From the IMG/VR virus record IMGVR_UViG_3300030098_002282, positions 1 through 53,236 of that record: a stretch of 53,236 nt of DNA; one strand, written 5' to 3'. Within the stretch, counting starts at the first letter, position 1. The number at the start of each line of letters is the position of its first letter. This stretch comes from a virus. Below the pieces are notes generated by a model. It saw only the letters and a list, made by a program, of their open reading frames with translations, was not told the origin of the DNA and did no database searches. This document shows, in pieces, positions 153-53,236 of this stretch. Position numbers and translations under genes: made by a program.

Positions 153-777
153 TGAACTGCCTTATCATTTCTTGATTGGCAGAGTAATGTCTACAATTTC
201 ATCTGCTTTTAAAAATCTTGTGAAATACTCAAGTTATTGTTCAGTTAGTATGCAACAAACCTTCTTTAGTGCTCTATATAATTCTACACCAGATGAATTA
301 GAAAACATAGACTTTGAAGGTAAGTTTAGTAAAGTTAAAGTGAACAAAGAACAACAGTGGTTAGAGATGATGAGAAAGTTAATGGTTATGCGTAAAATAG
401 ATGAATTATCTCATGACACTGGATGGTTTTGGGATGAACTAAACGATTCTAGAGAAAACTTCGAAGAAGGAATTTCACTAAGAGACTTACGAGTTTGCTT
501 TGGTGGAGAAATCCATTTAATGGATGCATCTCAGAGAAGAGAATGGCAAGATATAGCAGTTCGACACTGGTATAAGTTCTTTCCATCATTTCCAAATTCT
601 ATAGAAGAAATAGCTGAGCTACGATTCAAATTAGATAGGGAAATAATAACACACGCTATGTTAAAATTTAAAAAAGACATGGCAAAAGCTAAAAAGGAGT
701 ATGAGAATGTACTTAAGAATACCTTACCGAGTGTGGAACAAGGTGAATTATTTTCTCAAGAGATTTCCGTCAACTGA
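1..777 (+). CDS. C-terminal part of E2-like conjugation protein (gene cut by window edge)
   Basis: This is the end of the gene that starts at 51741. The reading frame enters through the terminal repeat and continues to the TGA at 775-777, giving a protein of about 706 residues when the ends are joined. An ATG at 25 lies inside the frame and is not the real start. This portion has no motif I recognise; it is rich in charged and aromatic residues and ends in a short acidic tail. The ribosome site and start of the JAB gene lie inside its last 80 bases, so translation of the two is coupled. The E2-like motif lies in the other part (see 51741-53236). Confidence 0.85.
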   Translation, partial: PNDSYHTAMKEAKMASAHKYSLLEEKKMLTPNMSFENGKFYHSHNSFDFRYELPYHFLIGRVMSTISSAFKNLVKYSSYCSVSMQQTFFSALYNSTPDELENIDFEGKFSKVKVNKEQQWLEMMRKLMVMRKIDELSHDTGWFWDELNDSRENFEEGISLRDLRVCFGGEIHLMDASQRREWQDIAVRHWYKFFPSFPNSIEEIAELRFKLDREIITHAMLKFKKDMAKAKKEYENVLKNTLPSVEQGELFSQEISVN

Positions 778-1636: not shown

Positions 1637-2339
1637 TATAACAGTTGTAGGATTAGGTGGCATAGGAAGTTCAGTAGTAATGCTATTGGCTACTATGGGA
1701 TTTGATTTTATAAGAGGATATGATTCAGACAACATGGAGGAACATAACTTTGGCACTACCTTGTATCCAGAGTCTATGTTTGATGGAGGAGGGGATAATT
1801 CTAAGACCTTAATGGCTAAAAACATCATAGAGAATTATGGTGGTGATGATGTCACTGTCCAAATGAACAATCAAAAGTTTATGGGCAGAGGTCAAGTATT
1901 GTCTCCTAAAACTATCGTCTGTACAGATGATATGACATCAAGGAAATGTGTGTATGACAGTTGGAAAGAGATGGAAAATAGGCAAGTCTTTATAGATATG
2001 CGTATGGATGCTCTAACAATGTCTTGCATAACTGTAACAAGAGAAAGTGATGTGTATGAAAAGTATTGGTTTGAGAACGGAGAAAGTGGCGAAGAGGCAC
2101 CTTGTACAATGAAACACACTATCTTTTGTGCATCATTAATCAGTGGTATAGGGGTTACACAGTTGTTTAATTACTTGACTGAAAGACCTTTTTATCAGTA
2201 TATTTGGCAAGGTCTTTCGCCTCTAGATATGAAGATGGAAGACTTCTATTGTGGAGAAACAATAGTGGAGAATAATACTGATAACATATTAACTGAAGAG
2301 GTGTCGTATGAAAATACAAACTCGTACAGTTACAACTAA
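1572..2339 (+). CDS. ThiF/E1-like adenylating enzyme
   Basis: A 255-residue minimal E1-type protein. The nucleotide-binding loop is G27-L-G-G-I-G32, followed by an acidic strand end and Asn in YDSDNMEEHNFG, the usual ThiF/MoeB/E1 arrangement for ATP and substrate. A cysteine (C178, in EEAPCTMKHT) sits at the start of a helix where phage and bacterial ThiF partners of JAB proteins keep their conserved cysteine, so it may form the thioester. ATG 1572 was chosen because AGGAGGT precedes it by about five bases; this makes the gene overlap the JAB gene by 65 bases. It also overlaps the next ATPase gene. The expected role is to activate the C-terminal glycine of the Ubl encoded at 51400. Confidence 0.9.
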   Translation: MSLLSRKHLRNQDLIPQTLLDDITVVGLGGIGSSVVMLLATMGFDFIRGYDSDNMEEHNFGTTLYPESMFDGGGDNSKTLMAKNIIENYGGDDVTVQMNNQKFMGRGQVLSPKTIVCTDDMTSRKCVYDSWKEMENRQVFIDMRMDALTMSCITVTRESDVYEKYWFENGESGEEAPCTMKHTIFCASLISGIGVTQLFNYLTERPFYQYIWQGLSPLDMKMEDFYCGETIVENNTDNILTEEVSYENTNSYSYN

Positions 2340-3144
2340 TTGGCAGGAAACGCCCGGTGGGCTGACATGGTATTTTATCGGTCAGCCCAAAACTGGGAAG
2401 ACTACTGCCGCCGCTAACTGGTCAAGTAAAGGTGCTAAAGGTGTCTTAATACTTGATACAGATTTAGGGGCTGATTTTGTTGATGGTGCAAATGTTGTAA
2501 CTATAACATCATTAAACCCACCCTATGAAGGAGAAGGTGATGATAGAAAAATCATTCCGTCAGAAGAAAGAGGATTTTATCATCGTGTAGGACCTGATAA
2601 GGGTAAACCTATGGAAGTGTATTCTTTAGCAGAGGTATTCCTCTGGTTAAAGGATGAATGGTCTCAATTACCTTACGAAACCCTAGTCATTGATACAGTT
2701 GATACTGTTAATCAATGGATAGAGCACGCCGTATGTAAGGAATTAGGCATAACTGCTATGGGTGAAGGTCAGTGGGGTGCTGACTGGGGAAAAGCAAGAA
2801 GGAAAAATGTTGACATAGTTAAGCGTTTACAACAGCTTATGAAACAACATGGTTCTAACTTGATAATAACATCCCACTCAAAGCAATCCCAAATGAACGA
2901 TGGCAAAGTGCAATTAAGTCCAGAACTCCCAAGAGGTCTGGGTTACGCACTCTGTGCTAGAGCTGATGTCATTGGGTATAGTACTGTCGTAAAAGATGAG
3001 ATTATACCAAAAGTTTCTTTTCAAGCATATGATGAGAGAACTGTTGGCTCCAGACTTAAGCCGTTGAATGGGAAAATACTGCCTTTTACCTACAATGACA
3101 TTACAAAGGCAATAACTGAATACAAGGAAGAAGAAGGAGAATAA
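2308..3144 (+). CDS. Sak4/RecA-like ATPase (single-strand annealing or recombination)
   Basis: A 278-residue P-loop ATPase with Walker A G25-Q-P-K-T-G-K-T32 and a Walker B strand in TLVIDTVDTVNQW. The short, C-terminally reduced RecA core matches the phage Sak4 family, which works with an SSB in recombination. The SSB is the very next gene, three bases downstream, and a primase-helicase follows, which supports the call. Its start overlaps the E1-like gene by 32 bases, tying the conjugation cassette to the replication operon. A general AAA-type ATPase is the alternative. Confidence 0.85.
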   Translation: MKIQTRTVTTNWQETPGGLTWYFIGQPKTGKTTAAANWSSKGAKGVLILDTDLGADFVDGANVVTITSLNPPYEGEGDDRKIIPSEERGFYHRVGPDKGKPMEVYSLAEVFLWLKDEWSQLPYETLVIDTVDTVNQWIEHAVCKELGITAMGEGQWGADWGKARRKNVDIVKRLQQLMKQHGSNLIITSHSKQSQMNDGKVQLSPELPRGLGYALCARADVIGYSTVVKDEIIPKVSFQAYDERTVGSRLKPLNGKILPFTYNDITKAITEYKEEEGE

Positions 3145-3147
3145 TGT

Positions 3148-3774
3148 ATGGCATTATTACAAACTACAACTTCTAGTGGTGCTAAGAATGACTTTACTGG
3201 TTACTTTGAGGCTGGTGTAGTCAAAGTTGAAGATAAATCTGGTCAATTTGATTGGGCTGATGTATGGCTAGATGTACATTTCAACATTAAAGGAAGTCAG
3301 TATCCCCAAATACATTCTATTAAAGGTTCTTTTGATAAAGGTCCTGATGGAACTGTAGAAATCAATAAAATGGTTAGACAATTTAACTATTTTAAAGATG
3401 CAATTGGGTTTACTGGTGGAATCAACACTGAAGGTAAATACGAGACTGTTGATGGAGAGCATATTGAGTCTATTTCAGACGCTTTAAACTCTTTTATTAA
3501 TATGATGAATGGTTCTGATAACCCAATGTTAGAACCACCTTTAGACTTTTATATATATGTTTATAAAGAGGCTCCTAAAAAGCCCGGTGATAAAATATAT
3601 AAAAGAGTTCTTGGCAAGATATGTTCTAATGATGCAAAAGGTAAAGCAGAACTGGAAAGTTATGTAACCTATATGCAACAGAAGAAATATATCAAGGAGG
3701 CATCCGAAGAGGATGTTGCTAAGAGTCCTTCAACAACGACATCTGGGTCCTCACTGGATGAGATGCCCTTTTAG
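3148..3774 (+). CDS. Single-stranded DNA-binding protein
   Basis: A 208-residue protein that ends in an acidic, hydrophobic tip (LDEMPF) after a low-complexity Ser/Thr linker. That is the hallmark of SSB proteins, whose tip recruits partner enzymes. The N-terminal 170 residues are predicted beta-rich, consistent with an OB fold, although the sequence is divergent from bacterial SSB. It sits between the Sak4-like ATPase and the primase-helicase, as in many phages. The start ATG at 3148 is preceded by AAGAAGGAGA. Confidence 0.8.
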   Translation: MALLQTTTSSGAKNDFTGYFEAGVVKVEDKSGQFDWADVWLDVHFNIKGSQYPQIHSIKGSFDKGPDGTVEINKMVRQFNYFKDAIGFTGGINTEGKYETVDGEHIESISDALNSFINMMNGSDNPMLEPPLDFYIYVYKEAPKKPGDKIYKRVLGKICSNDAKGKAELESYVTYMQQKKYIKEASEEDVAKSPSTTTSGSSLDEMPF

Positions 3775-3803: not shown

Positions 3804-5603
3804 ATGGAACTATATGTTGAAGTAGCAATAGGGAGTCCCCATCAAAGGGGGCTCCTTATGACTCTAGGTGATTACGAGAAAAACATTAATGAGTTTTTCA
3901 AGGCTGGTAGGACATTGCCTATTTTTAGGTCTCATTACTTGTATGATACAAATGCAGTTGATTTTGTTCAAGCAAACAACACATTAAAAGATTATATGGG
4001 TAAAAGATATATTGATAGTGTCTTAATAGATATTGATAAAAAAGACAATAGTGATAACTATACTTTAAATCAAGCAAAGTCAGTAGTGCAGGAGTTAATG
4101 GAGTTAGGTCTTAAAGAGGGTAATTATAAAATATATTATAGTGGAACGGGTTATCATATACTTGTTTGCTCTGATTGTTTTGGCTTTAAACCTCATGAAG
4201 ATTTACCTTATATGGTTAAGCAGACTATGACACAGTTAATTACTAGTGTTGACATAGACCCTGCTGTCTATATGAGAACAGCCATTTATAGAGAAGAAGG
4301 TACTAAAAACCCTAAGTCTAATCTATTTAAAACTCTCATGCCCTTTACCAGTTTTATAGCAATGGAATTTGATGAAGTAAAAGTTCTGGCAAAAGAACCA
4401 TCTAGTATAGATTGGGAAGATGTTATGTGGGGAGATGGCTCTTTAGAAACATCTATTCAAACTGCCGTTGAGCCCGTTAGGGCTTTTAAAGCGATTCAAG
4501 AACCTACTAAAGTTGTACCTTGTGTACAAAAAATGTGGAAAGAAGGACCAACGGAAGGCAGTAGGAATAATATACTACTCAGAATTGCATCACACTTTAG
4601 AAGAAATGGTATACCAAGTGACGCTACAAAAGCGGCTTTAATACATTGGAACCAAGATATGTTATCTGAAAACATTATTCTAGAGAAGGTCGAATCAGTG
4701 TACAATAATGGGTATCAATATGGTTGTCAAGACCCAGAAATGAAATCAAGATGTCAAACTCATTGCATTCACTATAAAAGAAAAGATTACACAATAAATG
4801 TAAAAGACTTTACGCAATTACAACAGAAACTAGAAGAAAGATTGTCAACAGATTTTAGTGGTCGAACAATAGACTTATCAAAAATCTTTGGATTACCAAA
4901 TCTTGACTGTACAATATATCCCGGGGAATTAGTGACCATCTTTGGTCCTACTGGTGCTGGGAAAACAACAGTTGCTCAAAACATTGTCTTGGGGTATAAC
5001 GCTTCACAAGATAGAATAGACCCAGACCAACAACTGAATACATTGTATTTAAGTTTAGAATTGAGTGATTGGTATATGCATAAAAGACATATTCAAATAG
5101 TTGCTGATGTAGATAAACAACAAGTAGAGGCAAATGCAAAACAAATAGCAGATGACCATAAAGAATTATTAGACCATATAATTATACAGACCATACAACC
5201 AACAGTTGAAGATATTGCTCACAAGATTAAAGAGTTAGACCCTCAAGTTGTGGTTGTAGATTACATTGACTTGATAGATGCTGGTCCTTCTCACCGTGGT
5301 GAATATGAAGGTATTAGATACATAAGTCACAGTTTATCTAATATGGCAGTTAATAATGATATAATAATTATACAATTATCTCAGGTAAGTAGAGAATATT
5401 CAAAAAATGATGTTCTTGATTTATATGCTGGTAAGGGTAGTGGTGCTATAGAAAATGCATCTCGAAAAGTAATAGGTATTAATGGGCAATCTAAAGACCC
5501 TATTAAACACTTATCGTTGTTTAAAAACTCAGACGGAGAACTCTTTGAGGATGTTCCTTTAAGATGGAGACCGTCATTTAGATTAAGGAGAGACTATGAG
5601 TAA
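3804..5603 (+). CDS. Primase-helicase: AEP primase fused to RecA/DnaB-like helicase
   Basis: A 599-residue fusion. The N-terminal half has archaeo-eukaryotic primase motifs: an acidic DxD in LIDIDKKD, a SGTGYH motif, and a third acidic site in VDIDPAVY. A cysteine cluster of the type seen after such primases (CQDPEMKSRCQTHC) follows. The C-terminal half has a Walker A (GPTGAGKTT) and a Walker B (VVVVDYIDLID) of the DnaB/RecA helicase class. It would unwind and prime the replication fork. No DNA polymerase gene is seen, so the host enzyme is probably used. The start is uncertain: ATG 3804 has no clear ribosome site, and ATG 3858 lies just after a strong hairpin. Confidence 0.9.
   Translation: MELYVEVAIGSPHQRGLLMTLGDYEKNINEFFKAGRTLPIFRSHYLYDTNAVDFVQANNTLKDYMGKRYIDSVLIDIDKKDNSDNYTLNQAKSVVQELMELGLKEGNYKIYYSGTGYHILVCSDCFGFKPHEDLPYMVKQTMTQLITSVDIDPAVYMRTAIYREEGTKNPKSNLFKTLMPFTSFIAMEFDEVKVLAKEPSSIDWEDVMWGDGSLETSIQTAVEPVRAFKAIQEPTKVVPCVQKMWKEGPTEGSRNNILLRIASHFRRNGIPSDATKAALIHWNQDMLSENIILEKVESVYNNGYQYGCQDPEMKSRCQTHCIHYKRKDYTINVKDFTQLQQKLEERLSTDFSGRTIDLSKIFGLPNLDCTIYPGELVTIFGPTGAGKTTVAQNIVLGYNASQDRIDPDQQLNTLYLSLELSDWYMHKRHIQIVADVDKQQVEANAKQIADDHKELLDHIIIQTIQPTVEDIAHKIKELDPQVVVVDYIDLIDAGPSHRGEYEGIRYISHSLSNMAVNNDIIIIQLSQVSREYSKNDVLDLYAGKGSGAIENASRKVIGINGQSKDPIKHLSLFKNSDGELFEDVPLRWRPSFRLRRDYE
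3832..3855 (+). promoter_or_regulatory. Strong hairpin at 5' end of primase-helicase gene
   Basis: GGAGTCCCC (3832-3840) pairs with GGGGGCTCC (3847-3855) around the loop atcaaa, a 9-bp stem with one G-U pair. It lies inside the coding region if translation starts at 3804, or directly before the alternative ATG at 3858. It may be an attenuator or a translation control. Confidence 0.55.
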
Positions 5604-6159
5604 AAAGCAAAAAGAAACAGCAAAAGAGTTAATTGGAGAACATATGGATGTGATGTTAAGGATGGAATTAGAACCAATTGACAAAGAAAACAATCTACCT
5701 GCTTTATTAGAAGAACAAGCCTTGATACAAGGAAAGATTAAAGACAAAGCTGATAGCATTGACTTTTTCTCTCAAAATATCAAGGAAAGAGAATATCTAA
5801 TAGACGCAGAGATTGAAGCTCATAAAGATGAAATAGCAAGATTACGAAATAGAAAGACCGCCTTAAATAATACATCTGATTATCTAAATAAAGTTCTACT
5901 ACCAATGTTAATAGAAGAACTTGGAGATGATAATGGTGTACTAGAAACTGATACCGCAAGGTATAAGTTATATGAAACATTTGGTTCTGTGGTTATAATA
6001 GACCATAATGCACTGCCAGATGATTTCATTAAAACAGAGATAGTGCAAAAAGTAGATAAAGCTTTGCTCAGAAAGGCTTGTATGTCTCTTGCCAAAGAAG
6101 GTAAGGATTTACCTAGCGGAGCAAGCATAACTAAGGTTAAAAGAGTTAAAAGGTCGTGA
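5596..6159 (+). CDS. Siphovirus Gp157-family protein
   Basis: A 187-residue protein matching the layout of the phage Gp157 family: an N-terminal region of about 110 residues rich in Glu, Lys and Ala that should form a coiled coil, then a beta-rich end with VVIIDHNALPDDFIKTE, a VDKALLRKA segment and a final lysine-rich strand. Gp157 proteins are common next to Sak/SSB genes and were linked in one streptococcal phage to resistance to infection, but their biochemical role is unclear. The start overlaps the primase-helicase stop by eight bases with a GGAGAG site upstream. Confidence 0.8.
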   Translation: MSKKQKETAKELIGEHMDVMLRMELEPIDKENNLPALLEEQALIQGKIKDKADSIDFFSQNIKEREYLIDAEIEAHKDEIARLRNRKTALNNTSDYLNKVLLPMLIEELGDDNGVLETDTARYKLYETFGSVVIIDHNALPDDFIKTEIVQKVDKALLRKACMSLAKEGKDLPSGASITKVKRVKRS

Positions 6160-11715: not shown

Positions 11716-14700
11716 TATGCTTCCTCAGTTCCTGCAAAGTAATTAGATGCTTTCATTCCCGGTGGTGTCCAAAACTCTGTACCTTTCTCTTCTTCTTTCT
11801 TTCTCTTGGTAGATATTCTTTTTGCACCTACTATTGGTAGTCCAGTTAATTTGTCTAATCCGTAGTATGGATTCTCAGTTAATCCTCCCGGTCCAACTAA
11901 GTCTCTTGCTAACCTACCAAATGGAAACATTGTCCAAGTATAATAATTAGCCATCTTTTCCCAATCATCATTGATAAGACCATTAAGTATTGGTCCTGTT
12001 AATCTAAATGATGGTGGTGTAATCAATTGTAACGGGGCTAATTTACCGGGATAAGCTCCAAAGAAAGCTCTGTCTCTTTCTTCTTCATTACCAAATAACC
12101 AATCACCTAAGTCTTGAAACCAAGCGTATGGTTGTGGCATTTGTGAGCCAAATAATGAGTACATAAACATAGAACCTAATGCTAATGATAAAGTATCTGC
12201 TATCATTAGTCTTTTAAACCTACCAAATTCAGGGCTTCCTTGACTTATACCTCTTAAAGCCGCCTCTCTAATTATAGTATTTCTATATCTTACACTATTC
12301 CAAGCCCATAATTGGAACCTAGATATCACTTTACCCATAGCAGTGCCAGCAAACATAGGTCTAAATGGTACAGAATACAAAAATTGTGTGGCTTTAACGC
12401 CTTTTTTACCCATTTCTATAAGGTAGGGGTGGTCTTTTGGCAGTGTTCTTCCACCTAATTTATCTCTAGCTTGTATATAATGAGCTATAAATGAGTCTCT
12501 ACGCAATGCTCGTTCAGGTAATGACATAAATTTCCCTGCAACATCCATCATACCTTTACCTAAATTATGTTTTTTCATTAAATCACGAAAAGAAATGTCA
12601 GGTAAGTCAGGGTCTTTCTTTACTGCTCTTCTAAAATCTTTTAAAAATGCTTGCCAATTAGCACCAGTTAATTGTGGGTTGGCACCAATCTCACGAATGA
12701 TAAACTCTTCAATGATGCCAAGCTCTCTTACCCACCTATTAACATCTTCCCAGCTCTTAAACTCTGGGTCAATAGTCTTTCTTAGATAGTCTAGTTTCTT
12801 TGCTTTAATAAAGTTATTAAATCCTGCATTAACAATAGTCATTTGACTACCACCTAAATAGTTACCGATACTTGATTTAGGATGTGCTAATAATGTAGCA
12901 AGTGCATACTTTGCTTCCATATTACCTAAGTTAATAACGGCTTGTGCACTAACTTTATCTAAGGATTTTAATTCAGGTGGCAACCCTTTACCCTTACCAA
13001 CTAGACCTAATTTTCTACCTATCTGGTCAAATCTTGTAGCCACTCTGTTGTCTGCTAATGAACCATATAATGTACCTTTGATTTTCATCTTATCATTATC
13101 AAACATTTCTTTAGGAATAATAGCAGGAAAGCCTAACGATTGTTGTGCGTACAACTTAAAGTAATTCATCCAACTTGTTCTTAAGTCTGTTGGCATATCC
13201 TTATGCTGTTTAGCAAACTCATTAATAGTTTCTCTTGATAATATTTGACCCAAGTTTCTATAAAATGTTTTTGTTATACTTTGAGTATAATCTAGGTACG
13301 CCTCAGGTGCTGTAGACCATCCTTCTATATGATTCTCTCTTGAGAACTGATTTCCTATTCTTTGTAGGTTATCAAACCATTTTATTTCTTCATTAGTTTT
13401 CTTACCTTGTTGCTTTTTTATTATAGCATCAGTTATATGCTCCCAAGTTTCATTAATAATATCTGCTTCAACAAAATCACCTGATAATTGTTTTGATTTC
13501 ATATACAACTTAGCAATCATTTGTTTCTTTTCTGCTACAGGTCTATTGCTTTGCCAAATAATCTCAATCTTTTTTGTTAAATCACCCATCATAATACCTT
13601 TCTCAAAATGTTTTGCAACATGAGGAAAGTATCCATAGATACCGGGTTTGTCTCCAACAGTTTTTAATTCACCAAGCATTCCTGTATCAAAGTTTATCTT
13701 TTTATTAGAAAGTTTTTCTGATAAACCCCCAAGTAACACCTGCCTTATAGGGTTTTTATCACCTGCCAGTCTTTCAGCTTCTCTTATTTGTCCCATCTGC
13801 ATACCAAGAATAATCTTTCTTTGCCCATCCATACCAAGTTTCTCTATTGGGAATGGTTTATTATTGACAAAGTGGTCAGTGACCCACTTAATCATTTTCT
13901 TTCTGGACACTACAGGTATTTCTGTGTTAACAATATTACCTTCAGCGTCAACTGTTGTGTAAAATTCTAACTTATTCCTCTTCTTCTCAACAAATTCTTT
14001 CCAAACTTTCTGGTCACCTACTAATTTCTGGTGATTCTCAAAGTTTTTTAATGCAAGTAATTGATGTATTTCTTCAACTAACTGTCGTGCAGGTTTTCTA
14101 ACACCACTAGTAAGAGTTAGTAATCTATTTTGAGTATTCTCCCAGTCTATTTTCTCAGACATTTCAGCAGTTCTTCTTTCATAGTTTCTAGCATACTCTT
14201 CAGTTAACTTATCTCCTGTTAATGCCCGTTCCCTTAATCGTCTAGGCATATAATCAGATTCAAATTTCATAGCGGCAAAATCCCATAAGTCTCTACCTAA
14301 TTCAGTAGTCATATATGGTTCACTTAAGTTACCCCATTCACGCTCTTCTCTTTGATTCTCCATAGTAGCAACTTCTTGGCTAAGATGAATATTTCTTTGT
14401 AGCTCACCCATCCATCCTTGAGCAGTCTTACCTTTACCTGTTACCCAGTTTCCATGTCTATCTTTATAAATAGTATCAACTGTGTTCCAATTTATCTCAT
14501 GTCTCATTATATCTCTATCAACTGCCTCTGGAAACATTCTATAAAATCTTTTAGCTAGTTTTGGAAACTCTCCTTCAACTTTAGCAAATGTCTTTTGGAA
14601 CCAAGTACCTTCTCTATGGTCTCTAAATATATTATTAACAACCTCCCAGTCCTCTAGAGTCATAGTGTTTATATCTTTGTTTATCATATCTCTTACAATA

Positions 14701-17700
14701 AGATGTAGATTTTCTCTAGTTTGTGGACCATAGTAATCCATATTAGATATAATCTCATTCATTACTTTCTTTGCTTTACTTGACACTATAACATCTTTAT
14801 GTTGTTCTAACTGTGAAAATGGAGCGTAATCCTCTAAATATTTCTGCGTTTTCTTAGAGTAATCATGTTGGTTTATAGCCAAACCTTCTGTTCTTTTACC
14901 TCCCTCATCAAACAAGGGTTGCTTTTTATTCTCAGCCTCCAGATTTTTTGTTATCTGTTTAGCAACCCTCGTATCTCTCCCGGAATCTTCGTACCTAAAT
15001 TGTTCGTACGCTTGCTCCATTAAATCAAGCTGTCGTTTGATTATATGGTCGCCTACTTCCTTGGATGCGAATCCCACTCTATTAAATTGTGTGTTGTGTA
15101 ACTGCCTTGACTTTGTATCTAAATACCTTTGTAAAGCCATATATGATTTATAACCATATTCTTTTTTACTATTATCAATTTTCTTTTTTGCATTTTGTAA
15201 TCTACCTACTATCTCTGGGTCACCTCTTTTCCAACTAGATATTAACATAGCGTCAAATAAATCACTCTCTGCTCTAGTCATCCCATCTTTATACTTTGCA
15301 ATAGCATCATCAAGCTGTCTCTGGTCCATTTCTCTAGTAGTAGTTTGACCCTCTATTGTTCTATCTAATTCAAGAATCATTCTCTTTGTCTTATCATCCA
15401 TCTCTAAATCTTTTAGAGGTTCAAGAGCGTCTCTTTCTTTGTCTTGTTTAGACTTTAATCTTTGTATAGCATCTACTACTTTAGCGTACTCTGCAAACTG
15501 TTCAGGGGGAATAACATCTTTATTCCAAACTTCTTTTAATAATCTAGCACTAGCCCAGTCTCCCATATCATTTGATAAAGAATCACCAGCTAGTTTAATT
15601 ATATTTTCTAGTATTTTCTTTCTAGCGTTTCTAGGAATTGCATCTACACCACCAGCTAATTCGATAATATCACCTTTGGTAATTTTATTATGTGCCTTTC
15701 CAAATAAAGTCCATTGTATTCTTCTTCCTATTTTTTTCTTTTCATGAAGACCAAATGTATTACCTTTTGCACCCATCTTTCTCATGGCTTTATCTACTCT
15801 ATCATTAACTCTAGGTAGTTCAGAAAATACATCAGGGCTTTCATGCATTCTCTTGTATTCATTAAAGAAATAGTCGGGATGCCTAGATAGTAATTCACCA
15901 AACCCTTCATTCCATATAAATTCTTTTCTACTATCTACATTAAATAAATCATATTTTTGAACTATTTCTAATGGTCTATTCTTAGGTATCGTCATACTAC
16001 CCCTACCAAGCAAACCCATTATCTCTTGGTAATCAGTGTTTGATAATGTTTCTTGAACATTCTTATACCAATTATCAAGCTTTGCTCTATCCATACGGTG
16101 TAATAAACTATCTGAAAAATCTAAATCTTTAGTTAAGTTGGCAACTTTTCCATTAAATGAAAGGTCAGTCCTTTCGTTTGGACCTTTTGGAACTTGTTTA
16201 ATTCTATTTATAGACTGAATAAAGTCAAATACATTATGAGCCTTACCAGTCTCTAAGTTCCTACCAAAAGATGCACTATTTATACCAGACATTATGCCTA
16301 CAAATGCTTTCTTTCTCTCTTGAGTTGTTAAAGCTTCATTATCTTTAGTCCATTTTCTACCATCTCTTGCACTATGATGTGTCTTCATCTTAAATAATGA
16401 ATCAAATATAGCATTAAAGAATACATCTGTACCTTTTAATCCAGCTTCATCCATAGGGTCAGATGCAAAAGCAACAGTAGCACGAGCTATTTTTCTAAAC
16501 TTCTTTAAACCTTCCTTGCTTGTAATAGGAGTAAGTTCATACTTTATATTTCCCCATCTATCTATTTCATAATAAGTATCTTTACCTTCAAATTCTAAGT
16601 GTGACCTTACTTGATTATAGGCGGCTAAAATAGAAGACCTATTTACAACAGATGGACCAAGCATATTCCTACCAACATGAGCTCCTGTACTTGCTTGATA
16701 CCTAAGCAATGGTGACCACCTTAATGATGGAGTTTTTATTCTATCTAGCAACTCATAGTCTTGAGAAGTTAACAACTCTTTCATATCTTTAGGTTTATTA
16801 TGAGCAATCTCAGTCAAACCAGTCTTTTTATTTTTTACATAGTACTCTTCTTTTTGTGAACCATAAGCCTCACGCCATTCTTTTTTAAATCCATTCTTTT
16901 CACCACCAAAAAAGATAGATGCTTTATCACCATCTAAATCGGCTCCTCCCAGTGCTTCCATAGTTCTTGGATGTAAGACACTACCAAATCCTTTTCTGCC
17001 CGTAAAGCCCTTAAATTGGAGCTTATGAGCCCCACTGAGTGAGTCCATAGGTACTCTTACTACTACTGCTTCTAATACATCTTCAAATCTTTTCTTAACT
17101 TCTTGGTTTAACCTTGGTTTTTGTAACTGTTCCCATATATAACCCAGTTTTAATGTAGCCCCATCGTCCATATGTATTTTTAAATCACGGAATCCTTCAT
17201 CAAGATAAAAGATACTATCATTCTCATTAAGCTCAGGTAATTTTTTCTGTAGATACTCATCGTAACCTGTCATTCTAGATGTTGCACTATTTCTCAACCT
17301 TGGTTTAACTATTTGAGAAAGTATATAGTTTCTCATAACGCTTTGTCTATAACTATCTCCAACTTTATGTAACAATGGAACAAGTGAATCTGGTTTTAAC
17401 TGAACTATTCTATCAAACACGCTTTGCCACTCCATAGCATCTAGTTTTAAACTGTGTGCATCTTGTGCTGACATCTCACCTTCAGATTGGAGCTCACCTA
17501 CTATCTGGTCATTGATTCTTAAAATTTTATTGTATGCTTTAGTAGCAAAGCTTTCGTGTGCTGGACTATTTATTAAGTCTAATAATTGTCTAATACCTAT
17601 ATCTTCTATATTACTAAGCAACTGTGCTTCAGTCTTAGTATCGCCCGGATTTTTTAATAATGTTTCTGCTAATGTGTTCTGTTCTTTTGTTCCATTAAAT

Positions 17701-20700
17701 GACTCAACACTTGCTCTTTCAAATATACCATCTATAACCCGTTGCTTTATTGGATTAAAGCCAAATGGTGTAAGATTAGATTGCATCTGTTTAGGAAGTC
17801 TTTGTGGTTTGATAAACTTATCACTTGTTATTTCTGATGCTACAACTTTTATATCTTTTACAGGTAATGTGTAACGATGCCTAGTATTCTGACCTGTTGG
17901 ACCAACCAATTTTATTCCTCTACCTGTCCATTCCCACTTATCCCATATATCTCTTTGACCATACTGCTTAGCAGATGATTCAGGTATTATCATTTCAATC
18001 TTTGCTCTTCTCATTGCCTCTGCTTGTGCTTCAGGAGCCGCCTTGAATTGATACTTACCAAGCAATGCTCCAAATTGAGCATCAGGTGAGACTATAAAAG
18101 ATTTATTTACACCACCAGATTTGTCACCATAAGGCAACCCTTGACCAGCATTTAAAGCGTCTACTATCTCAGGTAGTGCTATTATCTCACCATCCATTGT
18201 ATGCACATAATCTTCAGCCTTACTACCAGCGTGTGTTTTTTTATTAACATCTTTAGTTAATACATATCTTATACCCTCTGGTAATAACTGATGCCCAGTG
18301 GCTTCTGAAACAAATTGGTTTACATAATTAGGGTCAGAAGGTATACCATTAGTATGCCATATTTGAGACCTTTTATTATAAGCTTTTGCTGTACTTACAT
18401 TTAAGTTTTCTAGTGTTTCAAATCCTTTCCTACTAAATGGCAATCCATTTTGACTTAAATCGTATAATATATTATTTAAATAAGACCTATCAAATAGTCT
18501 TCCAGCTTGTGCCCTGTTTAATGTGTTGGCTCTTTGAAATTTAGACATAGAAGATTTTGTTGCAAAAGCATCCTGAAACAACTCTTTCTCTCTTTCATAT
18601 AACTTCACTGATTCAGGGTCTTTCTTTTTCATTGTTTCCAGAAGTTCTTTTACAACAGCATTAGGCTTTCTTCTCTTAGTTCCATCTAGGAATTTCATTC
18701 TAGACTGTAACTTTGGGTGTTCTTTTACAAAGTAAAGCCTTTCTGCATCACCCTTACCTCCAAGATACATATACCCAGACTCAGCCATTTGCTTTGTAAT
18801 AGTAGCCATAACATTATTATACTGGGTCTCAACTTCCTTTTCCATCCATTTATCAATAGCTTCTCTTTTAGCTTTCCCTTTTAACTCACTCCATTGTCCA
18901 TGTTCTGCTTCAAGTATTCCAGCTTTAGCCTCAACTTCTTTTATTAAATCCCTTCTCCAATCAGCGAAAGTTTGTTCCTGATAATACTTCCCATTAGCCT
19001 TCTTATTTGTTGTTATATCTTGGACTATTGCATAAACAGGCTCAGTTTTAGGGTCAATTTCAACACCATATCTTTCATAATATTCTCTTTGATATGCTTC
19101 TTCTATATTCTTTACAGGTTCTCTTAATTGCTTTGCGTTTCCTGCTAAATTAACAGCATCAGGTTCTAGATTTGGATTAAGAATATTTAATCTAACATCT
19201 GGGTTGTAATCAATTTCGATATCATCATCTTTAGTTTTTCTTAATCTTTCTTTTGCTGGATTCATATCCATAACAATAGATGCAACCTGAACAGGTTTAT
19301 TATGTATCCTAGCGTTACCCCATTTTACCCAGAATGACCACTCTGGGTCTTCAGGTGACTCGACAATATTCTTTTTAAATCTTTTATTAACCCACTTTAT
19401 CATATTGACCGCAGGATTTTCAGTAGAACCTGCTTGTATATTCTCACCTACAACTTGATTCCATTTTCTATTTATCAACCTCCAAGTATCTTCCATGGCA
19501 GTCTGTGGTTCAGGTGCTTCCTTCCACTGGTCTTCTAAAAATCGCTGTACATAATGCTTTGACTTGGTAAATAAAGCCTCATAACTTTGAGATGAATCAA
19601 TTAACTCAGGACTATTCTCACCATCAGTACCTTTTCCTTCTCTGCTTTCAGTAAGTTCTTCTTCTGGTTTTCTTATCCTCTCTACTGGCTCTCCTTCGTA
19701 TATCTCTTTAGCTTTTGTTTCTGCTTCTTGCATTTCTTTCATTCTACCAAGCTGGTCTCTTGCTAGTATATAACTTATTACACCACCTTGCTCTGCATCC
19801 CTAGTAGTTATTTCTTTAACAAGGTCTTTTGTTTTTGGGTCCATAGTTTCCCAACCCTCAACTAATTCAGGTGATGCAGTACCTCTTGCACCAGTTTCAG
19901 GGTCTTTGTATTGGGTTTTCATTTTATGGAGATGTTCTATAGCTCTCCTATTTTTTATATATTGCTCACCCTGACCAAAGAAAGCACCAAGTAGATAATC
20001 ATATATTTGTTCTTCAGTAGTAGCACCTCTAAGAGTAGCAGGCAATCCCATCATAAGGGAACCTGCAATACCTTTTAAAACTTTCTCATTTACCTGTTCA
20101 CTTGTTAAATCTTTTAACTTAGTTCCGGGTATAATAGGCTTAGCACCGGGTACCCTAATTAAATTACCTATAGCTCTAAAACCTGCACCTGCTATACCAC
20201 CACCTAAAGTAGCATCTGCTACTGCGTGTATACCTTCTTGCCAAGCAGATACACCTGATGCTATACCAAGATTAACTGCACCTTCCATCATATCTCCGGG
20301 TACAGTATTCATAAATTTCTCTACTGTATTAACAGCCTCGCCTTTCTTATTAATACCCTTTTTACTAAGACCTATTGCAGTTTTCTTTATACCACCAGTA
20401 GCCCATTTACCAACCATTAATGGGACAGAATGACCTCTAAGTTTCATTAAGTTAGTAGATAGCTTACTTGCCATACCTAGTTTAGATAGGACTCTTAAGC
20501 CCGGTACATACCCTATAAAGCCACCTAAATGACCAAGACTCCTTGCTATTCTTTCATAGCTAGTACGAGGTTGTTTATCTGCTTCTCCGTGGTCTATGTT
20601 TAGTGTGGTAAAACCTGCTATCCAGCCTTTACCTGCTTGAGACATCAAGCTACCAAAACTATTTTCCCCTAATGAAGTGTCCGGGGAAGACATTTTATAA

Positions 20701-20828
20701 TGCTCAGCGTGTTCTCTAATCAACTCAGATTGAGTATAATCGAACTGATTAGGGTCGCTTTTATATTGGTCTACTAGTTGAGCAGTAGTTTGCTCATCTA
20801 TGGTAGGTTCAAAACCGTACCTTACCAT
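11715..20828 (-). CDS. Giant virion protein with RNA-polymerase-like active-site motif (candidate virion RNAP)
   Basis: A 3037-residue protein, 17 percent of the genome. Around residues 1265-1310 it reads like the second catalytic double-psi beta-barrel of cellular RNA polymerases: R.PMDSL, a basic strand, HPRTMEALGGADLDGDKAS. Asp1297, Asp1299 and Asp1301 of ADLDGDK match the metal-binding NADFDGD site of RpoC and the DFDxDK form in crAss-like virion polymerases. About 370 residues earlier, a DGE (Asp879), a G.NKSF strand and LLGKYQFK (Lys925, Lys929) could be the first barrel. The C-terminal third is helical with hydrophobic segments (SLALGSMFMYSLFG), as in ejected proteins. The neighbours are internal virion proteins. 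The polymerase role is inferred from motifs only. Confidence 0.7.
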   Translation of the reverse strand: MVRYGFEPTIDEQTTAQLVDQYKSDPNQFDYTQSELIREHAEHYKMSSPDTSLGENSFGSLMSQAGKGWIAGFTTLNIDHGEADKQPRTSYERIARSLGHLGGFIGYVPGLRVLSKLGMASKLSTNLMKLRGHSVPLMVGKWATGGIKKTAIGLSKKGINKKGEAVNTVEKFMNTVPGDMMEGAVNLGIASGVSAWQEGIHAVADATLGGGIAGAGFRAIGNLIRVPGAKPIIPGTKLKDLTSEQVNEKVLKGIAGSLMMGLPATLRGATTEEQIYDYLLGAFFGQGEQYIKNRRAIEHLHKMKTQYKDPETGARGTASPELVEGWETMDPKTKDLVKEITTRDAEQGGVISYILARDQLGRMKEMQEAETKAKEIYEGEPVERIRKPEEELTESREGKGTDGENSPELIDSSQSYEALFTKSKHYVQRFLEDQWKEAPEPQTAMEDTWRLINRKWNQVVGENIQAGSTENPAVNMIKWVNKRFKKNIVESPEDPEWSFWVKWGNARIHNKPVQVASIVMDMNPAKERLRKTKDDDIEIDYNPDVRLNILNPNLEPDAVNLAGNAKQLREPVKNIEEAYQREYYERYGVEIDPKTEPVYAIVQDITTNKKANGKYYQEQTFADWRRDLIKEVEAKAGILEAEHGQWSELKGKAKREAIDKWMEKEVETQYNNVMATITKQMAESGYMYLGGKGDAERLYFVKEHPKLQSRMKFLDGTKRRKPNAVVKELLETMKKKDPESVKLYEREKELFQDAFATKSSMSKFQRANTLNRAQAGRLFDRSYLNNILYDLSQNGLPFSRKGFETLENLNVSTAKAYNKRSQIWHTNGIPSDPNYVNQFVSEATGHQLLPEGIRYVLTKDVNKKTHAGSKAEDYVHTMDGEIIALPEIVDALNAGQGLPYGDKSGGVNKSFIVSPDAQFGALLGKYQFKAAPEAQAEAMRRAKIEMIIPESSAKQYGQRDIWDKWEWTGRGIKLVGPTGQNTRHRYTLPVKDIKVVASEITSDKFIKPQRLPKQMQSNLTPFGFNPIKQRVIDGIFERASVESFNGTKEQNTLAETLLKNPGDTKTEAQLLSNIEDIGIRQLLDLINSPAHESFATKAYNKILRINDQIVGELQSEGEMSAQDAHSLKLDAMEWQSVFDRIVQLKPDSLVPLLHKVGDSYRQSVMRNYILSQIVKPRLRNSATSRMTGYDEYLQKKLPELNENDSIFYLDEGFRDLKIHMDDGATLKLGYIWEQLQKPRLNQEVKKRFEDVLEAVVVRVPMDSLSGAHKLQFKGFTGRKGFGSVLHPRTMEALGGADLDGDKASIFFGGEKNGFKKEWREAYGSQKEEYYVKNKKTGLTEIAHNKPKDMKELLTSQDYELLDRIKTPSLRWSPLLRYQASTGAHVGRNMLGPSVVNRSSILAAYNQVRSHLEFEGKDTYYEIDRWGNIKYELTPITSKEGLKKFRKIARATVAFASDPMDEAGLKGTDVFFNAIFDSLFKMKTHHSARDGRKWTKDNEALTTQERKKAFVGIMSGINSASFGRNLETGKAHNVFDFIQSINRIKQVPKGPNERTDLSFNGKVANLTKDLDFSDSLLHRMDRAKLDNWYKNVQETLSNTDYQEIMGLLGRGSMTIPKNRPLEIVQKYDLFNVDSRKEFIWNEGFGELLSRHPDYFFNEYKRMHESPDVFSELPRVNDRVDKAMRKMGAKGNTFGLHEKKKIGRRIQWTLFGKAHNKITKGDIIELAGGVDAIPRNARKKILENIIKLAGDSLSNDMGDWASARLLKEVWNKDVIPPEQFAEYAKVVDAIQRLKSKQDKERDALEPLKDLEMDDKTKRMILELDRTIEGQTTTREMDQRQLDDAIAKYKDGMTRAESDLFDAMLISSWKRGDPEIVGRLQNAKKKIDNSKKEYGYKSYMALQRYLDTKSRQLHNTQFNRVGFASKEVGDHIIKRQLDLMEQAYEQFRYEDSGRDTRVAKQITKNLEAENKKQPLFDEGGKRTEGLAINQHDYSKKTQKYLEDYAPFSQLEQHKDVIVSSKAKKVMNEIISNMDYYGPQTRENLHLIVRDMINKDINTMTLEDWEVVNNIFRDHREGTWFQKTFAKVEGEFPKLAKRFYRMFPEAVDRDIMRHEINWNTVDTIYKDRHGNWVTGKGKTAQGWMGELQRNIHLSQEVATMENQREEREWGNLSEPYMTTELGRDLWDFAAMKFESDYMPRRLRERALTGDKLTEEYARNYERRTAEMSEKIDWENTQNRLLTLTSGVRKPARQLVEEIHQLLALKNFENHQKLVGDQKVWKEFVEKKRNKLEFYTTVDAEGNIVNTEIPVVSRKKMIKWVTDHFVNNKPFPIEKLGMDGQRKIILGMQMGQIREAERLAGDKNPIRQVLLGGLSEKLSNKKINFDTGMLGELKTVGDKPGIYGYFPHVAKHFEKGIMMGDLTKKIEIIWQSNRPVAEKKQMIAKLYMKSKQLSGDFVEADIINETWEHITDAIIKKQQGKKTNEEIKWFDNLQRIGNQFSRENHIEGWSTAPEAYLDYTQSITKTFYRNLGQILSRETINEFAKQHKDMPTDLRTSWMNYFKLYAQQSLGFPAIIPKEMFDNDKMKIKGTLYGSLADNRVATRFDQIGRKLGLVGKGKGLPPELKSLDKVSAQAVINLGNMEAKYALATLLAHPKSSIGNYLGGSQMTIVNAGFNNFIKAKKLDYLRKTIDPEFKSWEDVNRWVRELGIIEEFIIREIGANPQLTGANWQAFLKDFRRAVKKDPDLPDISFRDLMKKHNLGKGMMDVAGKFMSLPERALRRDSFIAHYIQARDKLGGRTLPKDHPYLIEMGKKGVKATQFLYSVPFRPMFAGTAMGKVISRFQLWAWNSVRYRNTIIREAALRGISQGSPEFGRFKRLMIADTLSLALGSMFMYSLFGSQMPQPYAWFQDLGDWLFGNEEERDRAFFGAYPGKLAPLQLITPPSFRLTGPILNGLINDDWEKMANYYTWTMFPFGRLARDLVGPGGLTENPYYGLDKLTGLPIVGAKRISTKRKKEEEKGTEFWTPPGMKASNYFAGTEEA

Positions 20829-51107: not shown

Positions 51108-51400
51108 AAGGTAAAGGTGAAAACTATGAAGTTAGACAAATTTCATGGTTTAAAACAAAAAAGGTCACTATTAGTGGCGAAAGAAGAGAAGTTCCTATAT
51201 TATGGGAAAAGAGACTGATTGGTATTTATCCAACATACGATGAATCGTTATTTATCTTGAGAAGGACTCAGGGTAATTACAGGAAGGAATGCGGAAAGCA
51301 AGGAATAAAACCAATTGCTCGATTTACCATTAGGAAGACGGGCTTAAAGCCCACAACCAGTAGCGTAGGAAACTACCTACAAAGCACAGGAGGTCATTGA
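51083..51400 (+). CDS. Unknown protein directly upstream of the Ubl gene (105 aa)
   Basis: A 105-residue basic protein with a beta-rich core (WFKTKKVTISGERREVPIL, LIGIYPTYDESLFILRR). The stop codon TGA overlaps the ATG of the Ubl gene (TGATG), so translation is coupled, and the Ubl ribosome site AGGAGG lies inside its last codons. It is a candidate partner of the conjugation system, but no motif (no RING or cysteine pair) supports an E3 role. ATG 51083 has a weak site (GAGGGC). Confidence 0.6.
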   Translation: MVATEPKLEGKGENYEVRQISWFKTKKVTISGERREVPILWEKRLIGIYPTYDESLFILRRTQGNYRKECGKQGIKPIARFTIRKTGLKPTTSSVGNYLQSTGGH

Positions 51401-51654
51401 TGGCTGAAGTACGCTATATGGCATACCACACAGGTGGTGTTCCTAAGACTGTAGATGCGTCTACCCCTGCTGAGATTGCTGAAAAAGAAGGATTTGGCAT
51501 TGACGATTCGCAAGTTGCGATTTATGTCGGTGGGAAATCTGCGACAGCTAATACTCGTCTTAAAGACGGGCAAGTTGTTTCTTTTCAGAAAGCTAGGCAA
51601 GAGTCTGGGAATGATAAGGTAAAAACTTATCTTGTCAAAATCCGAAGAGGTTAA
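51400..51654 (+). CDS. Ubiquitin-like beta-grasp protein with C-terminal glycine
   Basis: An 84-residue protein. ATG 51400 is preceded by CACAGGAGGTCATTG; the TTG at 51397 is not needed. The order of elements matches a beta-grasp fold like ThiS/MoaD/ubiquitin: strand (VRYMAYH), strand (PKTVDA), helix (TPAEIAEKEGF), strand (QVAIYVGGKSAT) and a final strand after a turn (TRLKDGQVVSFQKA). A further tail ends KIRRG, similar to the RLRGG end of ubiquitin but with one glycine. No processing would be needed to expose the glycine. E2-like, JAB and E1-like genes follow. Several CGC/CGT codons suggest strong expression. Confidence 0.7.
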   Translation: MAEVRYMAYHTGGVPKTVDASTPAEIAEKEGFGIDDSQVAIYVGGKSATANTRLKDGQVVSFQKARQESGNDKVKTYLVKIRRG

Positions 51655-51685
51655 CTAGTAACTTCTTCATATAATCGAACACGGG

Positions 51686-51709
51686 GGGCTGGGAAACAAT
51701 AACCAGCCC
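51686..51709 (+). terminator. Attenuator-like hairpin between Ubl and E2-like genes
   Basis: GGGCTGG (51686-51692) pairs with CCAGCCC (51703-51709) around a ten-base loop, with AACaCG/CGgTT pairing possible outside. No T tract follows, so it is probably partial: it would let the Ubl be made in excess over the enzymes. Confidence 0.55.
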
Positions 51710-51740
51710 TCACGGTTCATAAAATAAAAGGAGGACAGAA

Positions 51741-53236
51741 ATGTTCCAATACAATCCAAAAGAATATGAAAGAATAACAGACCCAGAATATATAATAAAA
51801 TGTACCTACTATAATGAAGAACATAAGGTAACAATGAAGAGATTTATAGTAGAAGCTTTCAAAGAAACAAATAAAGACTTTCCGTTTGAAGATTTCTTAA
51901 ATGAATATGAGTTTCTATATGATGACATAAGAGAGCAAGTCTTACTTATTATTAGAGGAGCTAGACTTAGGCTTCGTAAATATTTTCATTTACCACCTAT
52001 TTATATAGCTTTCCCTATGACTGATGCTATGTCTCTTAATTGGGAACCTCAAATGTCTAGGTACTTACAAAAAATGGCTCCAATAGGTTTTCTTAACGAA
52101 GAAAGCAAGGAAGATGCTTATAAGCTATCTGAACATCCTTTCTCAGTATTATATCATCCACATATTGACTCAATGGGCTTTGCCTGTTATGGTAATTGGG
52201 GTGAAATCATACTAGAATGCACTGGTGCTTATCAAATAATAGAGAACTTAAGAGGATTTGTAAATGACTATAATGGTAGAAGTACTTTCTATACTGTAAA
52301 TCCCTATGCTTTTGATAGGAAAGAAAATATCAATACCTATTATGACCATTTTCAATTTCCTCAGCGTATAAATTCATTTGTTGCTTGTGGTTATCCTAGA
52401 ATTTGGCAATCTTGGTCTTCAATTATAGAAGGTGTCTTCGGAAATAATTGGATACTAGAAATGTGTGAAGAATTATCTCTTAATTATGAAACAATGAATT
52501 GGATACATAATTATATCACATATATAGATAAAAATGGTGCTAGCACAAACGACTACTATTCAATATTTGATGATTTTGTTAAAAATGGTGGAATAGAAGG
52601 AGTAGAGTATTATCAATATCCCGGTGACCATAAAGATAGTGAAGGAGAACGAATAAGGTATAACGAAGATGAATGGGAAATAGAAATGAAGAAATATAAG
52701 AAATACGAAGAAGTAAAGAATACTCACACTCCACAGTCTTTTAGTAACTATGTAGGTTTATGGCTACAGAGTAAAATTGGTTACAATTTTTCTAAAGGTG
52801 ATTTATCTGCTATAAAGCATGGATTAAAAAGTTGGGTATCAATAAATCTAGAGCGTGATGTAAGATACACAGAAAAGTATACTAAATGGAAAAGTAAAGA
52901 CCCTCAAGGATTCAGAATACATGGTATGCTGGAAACTATGGGAACTAGAACATTAGATTCAGATGGACCTAATTTTCTAAGCTCGGACTATGCTTCTCTG
53001 GTTTTTCTTTTAGCTAGTAATAGTAATATAGACCAGATTTTGAAAACTCTTTTCAATTTTGAAGATAAAGCAAGAGATTCATTACCAAATGATTCGTATC
53101 ATACGGCGATGAAAGAGGCAAAAATGGCTTCTGCTCATAAATACTCTCTATTAGAAGAAAAGAAAATGCTTACACCGAATATGAGCTTTGAAAATGGAAA
53201 GTTCTATCACAGTCATAATTCTTTTGATTTTAGATA
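51741..53236 (+). CDS. E2-like ubiquitin-conjugation protein (N-terminal part; continues at 1-777)
   Basis: The first 498 codons of a 706-residue protein, starting at ATG 51741 after AAAGGAGGACAGAA. Residues 139-149 read H-P-H-I-D-S-M-G-F-A-C. Ubiquitin-conjugating enzymes have HPNxxxxGxIC with the same ten-residue step from His to catalytic Cys and the same Gly, so C149 is the likely thioester residue, with His in place of Asn in HPN. It is followed by GNW and a helix (AYQIIENLRGFVNDYN), as in E2 enzymes. Residues about 60-200 would be the UBC domain; the remaining 500 residues are unknown and may choose substrates. Neighbours are Ubl, JAB and E1-like genes. Confidence 0.75.
   Translation, partial: MFQYNPKEYERITDPEYIIKCTYYNEEHKVTMKRFIVEAFKETNKDFPFEDFLNEYEFLYDDIREQVLLIIRGARLRLRKYFHLPPIYIAFPMTDAMSLNWEPQMSRYLQKMAPIGFLNEESKEDAYKLSEHPFSVLYHPHIDSMGFACYGNWGEIILECTGAYQIIENLRGFVNDYNGRSTFYTVNPYAFDRKENINTYYDHFQFPQRINSFVACGYPRIWQSWSSIIEGVFGNNWILEMCEELSLNYETMNWIHNYITYIDKNGASTNDYYSIFDDFVKNGGIEGVEYYQYPGDHKDSEGERIRYNEDEWEIEMKKYKKYEEVKNTHTPQSFSNYVGLWLQSKIGYNFSKGDLSAIKHGLKSWVSINLERDVRYTEKYTKWKSKDPQGFRIHGMLETMGTRTLDSDGPNFLSSDYASLVFLLASNSNIDQILKTLFNFEDKARDSLPNDSYHTAMKEAKMASAHKYSLLEEKKMLTPNMSFENGKFYHSHNSFDFR
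53085..53236. repeat. Right copy of terminal direct repeat
   Basis: A repeat of bases 1-152, with c at 53148 and a at 53159 in place of t and g. The reading frame of the E2-like gene passes through it unbroken. Joining the copies gives the complete gene. Confidence 0.95.

Follow-up and report, generated by a model that had tools for sequence, protein, structure and literature searches.

Why would a phage carry, next to its replication genes, what looks like a complete machinery for attaching a ubiquitin-like protein to other proteins? The question is raised by IMG/VR record IMGVR_UViG_3300030098_002282, a single virus record, 53,236 bases long, that was analyzed over its full length and is called the window here. 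Four genes in a row on its + strand encode a ubiquitin-like modifier (Ubl), an E2-like protein, a JAB/JAMM metalloprotease and an E1/ThiF enzyme, so that all four components lie together, spanning the junction of a circular genome. The E1 gene is followed by genes for a Sak4-like ATPase, a probable single-strand binding protein (SSB), a primase/DnaB-type helicase and a Gp157/Gam-like protein (Table 1). We read the cassette as a phage-owned Ubl conjugation pathway that forms a core part of the replication module and acts at the replisome, and give this reading a probability of roughly 0.55. Its parts differ in strength. That the cassette performs Ubl conjugation chemistry, as a catalytically competent pathway, is very probable, and the replisome as its site of action is close to an even call.

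An initial annotation of the window had described four co-directional genes across the circle junction, and the open reading frames (ORFs) lie as described. The ends of the record overlap by 152 bases (1-152 and 53085-53236) with 2 mismatches, giving a circle of 53,084 bases. Once this terminal repeat is removed, positions 51741-53236 join to 153-777 and the E2-like protein has 706 amino acids. The junction is genuine, because close relatives carry the e2-like gene uninterrupted, with lengths of 691 to 731 amino acids. The 2 mismatches in the overlap suggest that two population variants were joined during assembly.

The first gene encodes an 84-residue protein that had been proposed as a beta-grasp Ubl, and its sequence profile agrees with a fold of the ThiS/ubiquitin type. 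A profile built from 35 relatives matches ThiS (2cu3, 6.4e-5); taken singly, 12 of the 35 match the TGS model (best 0.0027) and five the ThiS model (best 0.048). The suggestion that the terminal RRG is the reactive end was not borne out. RRG is ruled out as the functional tail because it is not conserved; it closes a dispensable extension. The invariant element is instead Ser69-Gly70, found in 29/29 and 35/35 relatives in two alignments, which provides a conserved C-terminal glycine that an E1 could use. It does not stand at the end of the ORF, since 14 residues of variable tail follow it in the window. Counted over the relatives, the number of residues after the Ser-Gly pair is 0 (2 proteins, which stop exactly at the Gly), 1 (34), 2 (9), 9 (5), 14 (2), 28 (1) or 76 (1). 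An invariant Ser-Gly followed by a tail of variable length is the pattern of a precursor cut after the Gly by JAB, which probably removes these tails. Ubl ends with a single Gly are workable, as Cap2 works with the one at the C-terminus of cGAS (PMC10097602).

The full JAMM site reported for the third gene is confirmed: E24, H91, H93, S101 and D104 are invariant in 40/40 dereplicated relatives, and the JAMM residues remain invariant in 27/27 when members from crAss-like phages are added. The ThiF/E1 assignment of the fourth gene holds equally for the ATP site and the catalytic cysteine. R10, GxGxIG, D51, N59, K78, D119 and C178 (PCTMKHT) are invariant in 37/37 dereplicated relatives, C178 and K181 are invariant in 28/28 once crAss-like members are included, and the PCTxK sequence around the cysteine is E1-like. 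UBA5 ranks first among the matches of the E1 profile, which also include MccB, UBA6, SAE2, ThiF, BubCD and Cap2. The Pfam search that the initial annotation proposed recovered these two enzymes (Table 1) but gave no significant single-sequence match for the Ubl or the E2-like protein.

In the E2-like protein, an active-site motif spaced as in real E2 enzymes had been noted, and the HPHI-x(n)-C spacing is indeed that of an annotated bacterial E2 from a Crinalium plasmid (LYHPNVFSHGGFC). H139, H141, C149 and G151 are invariant in 37/37 dereplicated relatives, and the motif is also found in 40/40 members of another set. HPHI...C.G thereby places an HPN-like motif before the active-site cysteine, with the Asn replaced by His. 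About 35 residues beyond the cysteine comes another conserved element, S-x-[FY]-[WFY], which is similar to the NSYWNIN of an Aeromonas plasmid protein in which E2 and E1 are fused.

The relationship of the Ubl to ThiS and of the E1 to ThiF could also point to sulfur transfer, with the Ubl as a ThiS/MoaD-like thiocarboxylate donor that is activated by ThiF and matured by JAB, and a fourth protein that is not an E2 but draws on the sulfur, for instance to make a modified nucleotide. ThiS/MoaD-JAB-E1 gene sets accompanied by sulfur-assimilation genes have been described (PMC1779556). However, no rhodanese or sulfurtransferase partner was seen among the scanned neighbors, the E1 has the E1-type PCTxK sequence, and the fourth protein combines an invariant HxH...C.G motif with best fold matches to E2 proteins, which makes a sulfur carrier quite improbable. 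A role in thiamine or molybdenum-cofactor synthesis was rejected, as no partner genes occur among the scanned neighbors.

Table 1. Features of the Ubl cassette and of the adjoining replication genes in the window
Feature	Position	Strand	Evidence or remark
Ubiquitin-like modifier, 84 aa, beta-grasp of ThiS/MoaD type	51400..51654	+	Profile match to ThiS
Ser69-Gly70, predicted mature Ubl C-terminus	51604..51609	+	Invariant in relatives
Stable RNA hairpin between ubl and e2	51677..51718	+	z -6.3
E2-like protein, residues 1-498	51741..53236	+	Continues across circle junction
E2 active-site motif HPHIDSMGFACYG (H139, H141, C149, G151)	52155..52193	+	Invariant in relatives
E2-like protein, residues 499-706	153..777	+	Stop at 775-777
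QGELF, E2 residues 695-699, QxxLF like sliding-clamp binding motif	739..753	+	Enriched in marine E2s
JAB/JAMM metalloprotease, 309 aa	707..1636	+	Pfam Prok-JAB 4.9e-6
JAB metal site: HSH-x7-S-x2-D; E24	977-1018; 776-778	+	Invariant 40/40
E1-like ThiF enzyme, 255 aa	1572..2339	+	Pfam ThiF 1.6e-10
E1 GLGGIG; C178 of PCTMKHT	1650-1667; 2103-2105	+	Invariant
Sak4-like single-strand annealing ATPase	2308..3144	+	phrog_124 1.2e-26
Probable phage SSB	3148..3774	+	Acidic C-terminus ...DEMPF; without family match
Primase/DnaB-type helicase	3804..5603	+	DnaB_C 1.5e-17, PriCT_1 3.2e-6, phrog_19 5.7e-36
Gp157/Gam-like protein	5596..6159	+	Sipho_Gp157 6.4e-10

The cassette is widely shared among marine relatives of this phage. 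A search of IMG/VR with the E1 as query gave 141 relatives, 80 of which were analyzed. Iterated profiles place the Ubl, E2, JAB, E1, SAK4, SSB-like and helicase genes in the same order in nearly all 80, and Ubl, E2, JAB, E1 and helicase occur together in 45 IMG/VR loci. An independent scan was seeded with the helicase rather than the cassette. It gave 11 loci that had 5.5 kb or more of upstream sequence, and the complete cassette is present in every one; in L191, the KHPHMSNGQPCLG motif identifies the E2. Distances between E1 proteins run closely in parallel with those between helicases (r 0.95), and the correlations for pairs of cassette proteins are 0.78 to 0.92. The presence of the cassette in 11/11 relatives found through the helicase indicates a core, vertically inherited module; judged by these sequences, it is a core gene set of the phage lineage and not an accessory one. 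A first genome scan found no host chromosomal homologues. The one match of a second scan, a short contig assigned to a Spirochaetia metagenome-assembled genome (L087, SABI01000248.1), was rejected as a host homologue, being itself a crAss-like fragment. In it, the E1 is followed by a uracil-DNA glycosylase-like gene, which probably marks it as a binning contaminant or an infecting phage. Among plasmids, only distant ThiF matches were found, and none for JAB.

This inheritance bears on a possible role in counter-defense, in which the phage pathway would mimic, consume or remove the Ubl marks of a host Bil or type II CBASS system. Host systems with E1/E2/JAB chemistry do exist (PMC10097602, PMC1779556). 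However, none of the 11 testable relatives lacks the cassette, which is inherited along with the helicase, unlike patchy anti-defense genes; all its enzymes look active, and PADLOC gave no Bil or CBASS match for the Ubl, E2 or JAB. Counter-defense is therefore rather unlikely. Among the three roles proposed in the initial annotation (tagging of host proteins, tagging of phage replication proteins and a decoy), the decoy has the weakest support, given a set that is fixed, passed on vertically and intact in its catalytic residues. Replication-fork proteins are favored as targets by the gene context and by a QxxLF motif discussed below.

The design of the operon adds to this picture. The placement in a replication operon rather than a tail module is upheld by the adjoining Sak4, SSB-like and primase-helicase genes. 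The e2, jab and E1 genes overlap (median spacings of -68 and -38 nucleotides), whereas ubl and e2 are separated by a median gap of 93 nucleotides, which in the window contains a stable RNA hairpin. This hairpin has z < -2 in 27/34 loci (median z -3.4), and shows compensatory changes in 5 of 11 pairs across five homologous loci. Its loop, GGGAAACAAUAACC in close relatives, is conserved. With ubl set off by the hairpin and the enzyme genes overlapping, the arrangement fits a consumable modifier, which would be produced in excess of its enzymes. Downstream, the acidic ...DEMPF end of the protein at 3148-3774 suggests a phage single-strand binding protein; close relatives end in DEMPF, DDLPF, DELPF or DDMPF, and Pfam and PHROG scans gave no family match. 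Elsewhere in the window, a 3037-residue protein without a PHROG match is encoded on the - strand among structural genes (11715-20828).

The claim that a phage owns a complete Ubl pathway stands in that the full set is present with invariant catalytic residues, but the set is not peculiar to this phage. In the cultured gut phage crAss001, a diverged set consisting of gp79 (Ubl), gp78 (E2-like), gp77 (JAB) and gp76 (E1) lies between the primase and uracil-DNA glycosylase genes. DAC15, the PhiCrAssBcn phages, Flavobacterium phage FpV4, the uncultured cr126_1 and Dulem virus 41 likewise have diverged versions of the four genes in this order. A scan with the E1 of these phages gave 78 loci; among the 84 loci analyzed, an E2 is found in 78, a JAB in 78 and a Ubl in 76. 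The E1 and JAB proteins of marine and crAss-like phages are clearly homologous (E 1e-20 to 1e-34), and their Ubls align over the full length with the Ser-Gly in register (pairwise E 5.8e-5, probability 66%).

At the corresponding Ser-Gly, crAss-like Ubls have S in 58/61 and G in 61/61, followed by a longer C-terminal extension. In three of these loci (L083, L084 and L085), the Ser-Gly is followed by about 30 conserved residues with a K.FGKNFTQ-like sequence, which may be a small domain for binding DNA or protein that JAB releases. Such fused extensions could suggest a self-contained circuit, in which no protein is tagged covalently and the processed Ubl and its tail serve the replication proteins as regulated partners. 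This is highly improbable, as such a circuit would have no need of an E1 or E2, yet the active sites of both are invariant.

In three crAss-like loci (L098, L104 and L128), a group I intron confirmed by Rfam splits jab at its HSH codons or directly behind them, and in another (L121) such an intron splits e2 at its own HSH codons. Highly conserved codons are the usual target of homing elements, and the intron positions agree with this. Cassette genes are also split without an Rfam match in L111, together with a probable homing-endonuclease ORF, and in L146. A third version of the system occurs in Xanthomonas jumbo phage PhiXhv-15 (L167, 2709-6588), with a Ubl ending in ...KASGG, an E1 and an E2-like protein of 892 amino acids that has HPHM...CLG and a cysteine-rich C-terminus; no JAB was seen near these genes.

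A link to the replication fork is suggested by a short peptide near the C-terminus of the E2-like protein, QGELF in the window. Counting QxxLF or QxxL[PSF]F, with expected values taken from shuffles, the motif occurs there in 30/34 dereplicated marine E2s (3.6 expected), compared with 2/36 other long marine ORFs (3.5 expected). It is also found in JAB, mostly in the linker, in 7/32 marine (1.4 expected) and 17/62 crAss-like proteins (3.9 expected). Taken together, 25/28 marine loci have it in E2 or JAB, against 4.0 expected. The bacterial sliding-clamp motif is QL(S/D)LF and typically C-terminal (PMC9690074). A scan of the window proteins revealed no recognizable clamp or DNA polymerase, which makes the host clamp the natural partner. 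The peptide may thus dock on the beta sliding clamp, most likely that of the host.

With the same motif, tags might just as well be steered to host clamp partners, and the cassette might serve to tag host proteins, such as replication or transcription factors, for takeover or shutdown. Its location in an early operon and its co-direction with the replication genes would suit this, and the shared operon would then reflect no more than the early expression of both. However, widely differing phages keep the cassette, and they do so at varying points of the replication module, which speaks for a role in replication rather than for a single host target. Host tagging is accordingly possible but unlikely.

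Under the preferred reading, action at the replisome, the Ubl would be made in excess as a precursor, as the hairpin and its separate position suggest. JAB, with its JAMM site, would trim any tail after Ser69-Gly70 and might later reverse the conjugates. The E1 would use its conserved ATP site to adenylate the Gly carboxylate and would accept the Ubl on Cys178. From there, the Ubl would pass to Cys149 in the HPHI-C-G site of the E2, which would hand it to lysines of replication-fork proteins. To reach its targets, the pathway would rely on the QxxLF peptide, which lies near the C-terminal end of E2 and in some phages in the JAB linker, and which would dock on the beta clamp, most likely the host's. 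The sequences themselves show the genes with their invariant catalytic residues, the core status, the synteny and the motif enrichment, and from these we infer the thioester relay, the conjugation, the clamp binding and the substrates. A wider proposal, that marine and crAss-like phages share, in diverged form, a widespread viral Ubl pathway that belongs to the replication machinery and is docked on the bacterial sliding clamp as a counterpart of the ubiquitin and SUMO modification of PCNA, is tentative.

Several observations weigh against this reading. The E2-like protein has no significant Pfam or PDB sequence match, profile-profile comparison with single bacterial E2s gave only weak matches, and that between marine and crAss-like E2s aligned at the active-site motif only. 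An AlphaFold2 model of residues 1-498 is good, with a predicted local distance difference test (pLDDT) score of 80.7 and a predicted template modeling (pTM) score of 0.79. Its best Foldseek matches in the PDB are mostly UBC enzymes, which speaks for an E2, but at E values of at least 1.9. After realignment with VIA, all 50 rows listed are E2 or UEV proteins (Z 4.3-5.3), which by itself is no proof of a UBC fold. These alignments begin mostly near model residue 27, and the shorter ones end near 181. Because realignment merely re-ranks the Foldseek matches, the evidence for a UBC fold is consistent but weak and not conclusive. Among viral models, Foldseek gave one full-length match (A0A516LW79, 2.2e-3). 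As for targeting, the phage QxxLF peptides lack the Leu preferred at position 2 of the clamp motif, are absent from most crAss-like JABs and could bind a partner other than the clamp. Neither an E3 nor a substrate was identified in the analysis.

If correct, the reading would extend the toolkit of phage replication to protein tagging and provide new lineages for the origin of ubiquitin systems. The known prokaryotic E1/E2/JAB Ubl pathways are bacterial or plasmid-borne and, where tested, mainly anti-phage, whereas here the set belongs to the replication core of a phage and may give viruses of bacteria a means of modifying replication-fork proteins. In the open literature, we found no paper on phage-encoded E1-E2-Ubl sets, including those of crAss-like phages; subscription papers and preprints lay outside the search. 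The cassette genes of crAss001 (grown in Bacteroides intestinalis), DAC15 and FpV4 are deposited as 'hypothetical', 'metalloprotease' or 'thiamine biosynthesis'. The same gene order in cultured phages makes the idea testable at once.

Several known systems resemble the cassette. Type 6d bacterial Ubl operons, which we take to be the PRTRC system, likewise have separate Ubl, E2-like, JAB and E1 genes. The window proteins score far below the PRTRC cut-offs (PRTRC_A, 14.7 bits versus 101.8; PRTRC_ThiF, 10.9 versus 144.75). As described by Iyer, Burroughs and Aravind (2006), type 6d operons share a stand-alone Ubl with a conserved C-terminal Gly and a mobile-element setting, but their E2s lack the classical His before the Cys, which the phage E2s retain (HPHI). 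The type 6d partner genes are replaced here by phage replication genes.

Bil (BilABCD) and Bub also combine Ubl, E1, E2 and JAB within one operon. These are bacterial anti-phage or stress systems, whereas here the phage owns the pathway. The phage E1 profile finds BubCD, and the crAss-like E1 matches BilD (5.4e-6) in the ThiF core only; PADLOC gave no match to a Bil model for any window protein. Type II CBASS, through Cap2 and Cap3, shares the E1/E2 relay and the JAB, and a PH[IV]...G.xC...S.[FY]W-like pattern is common to the phage E2 and the Aeromonas plasmid E2-E1 fusion. However, Cap2 is an E1-E2 fusion that conjugates cGAS without a Ubl, whereas the phage has a separate Ubl, separate E1 and E2 genes and no cGAS, and no CD-NTase was seen among the scanned neighbors. 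In the tail-assembly proteins TAPI and TAPK of phages such as lambda and T1, a Ubl with a conserved Gly is paired with a JAB predicted to cut after it (PMC1779556). These are tail-assembly genes without an E1 or E2, in contrast to the full set in a replication module found here. The crAss001 gp79-gp76 and FpV4 sets share the gene order, a Ser-Gly Ubl, an HSH...C.G E2-like protein, a JAMM site, an E1 and a position amid replication genes, but they are strongly diverged, with the Ubl fused to an extra C-terminal extension and QxxLF, where present, in JAB and not in E2. By these comparisons, the cassette is a variant of the known bacterial Ubl/E1/E2/JAB kind that stands outside PRTRC, Bil and CBASS.

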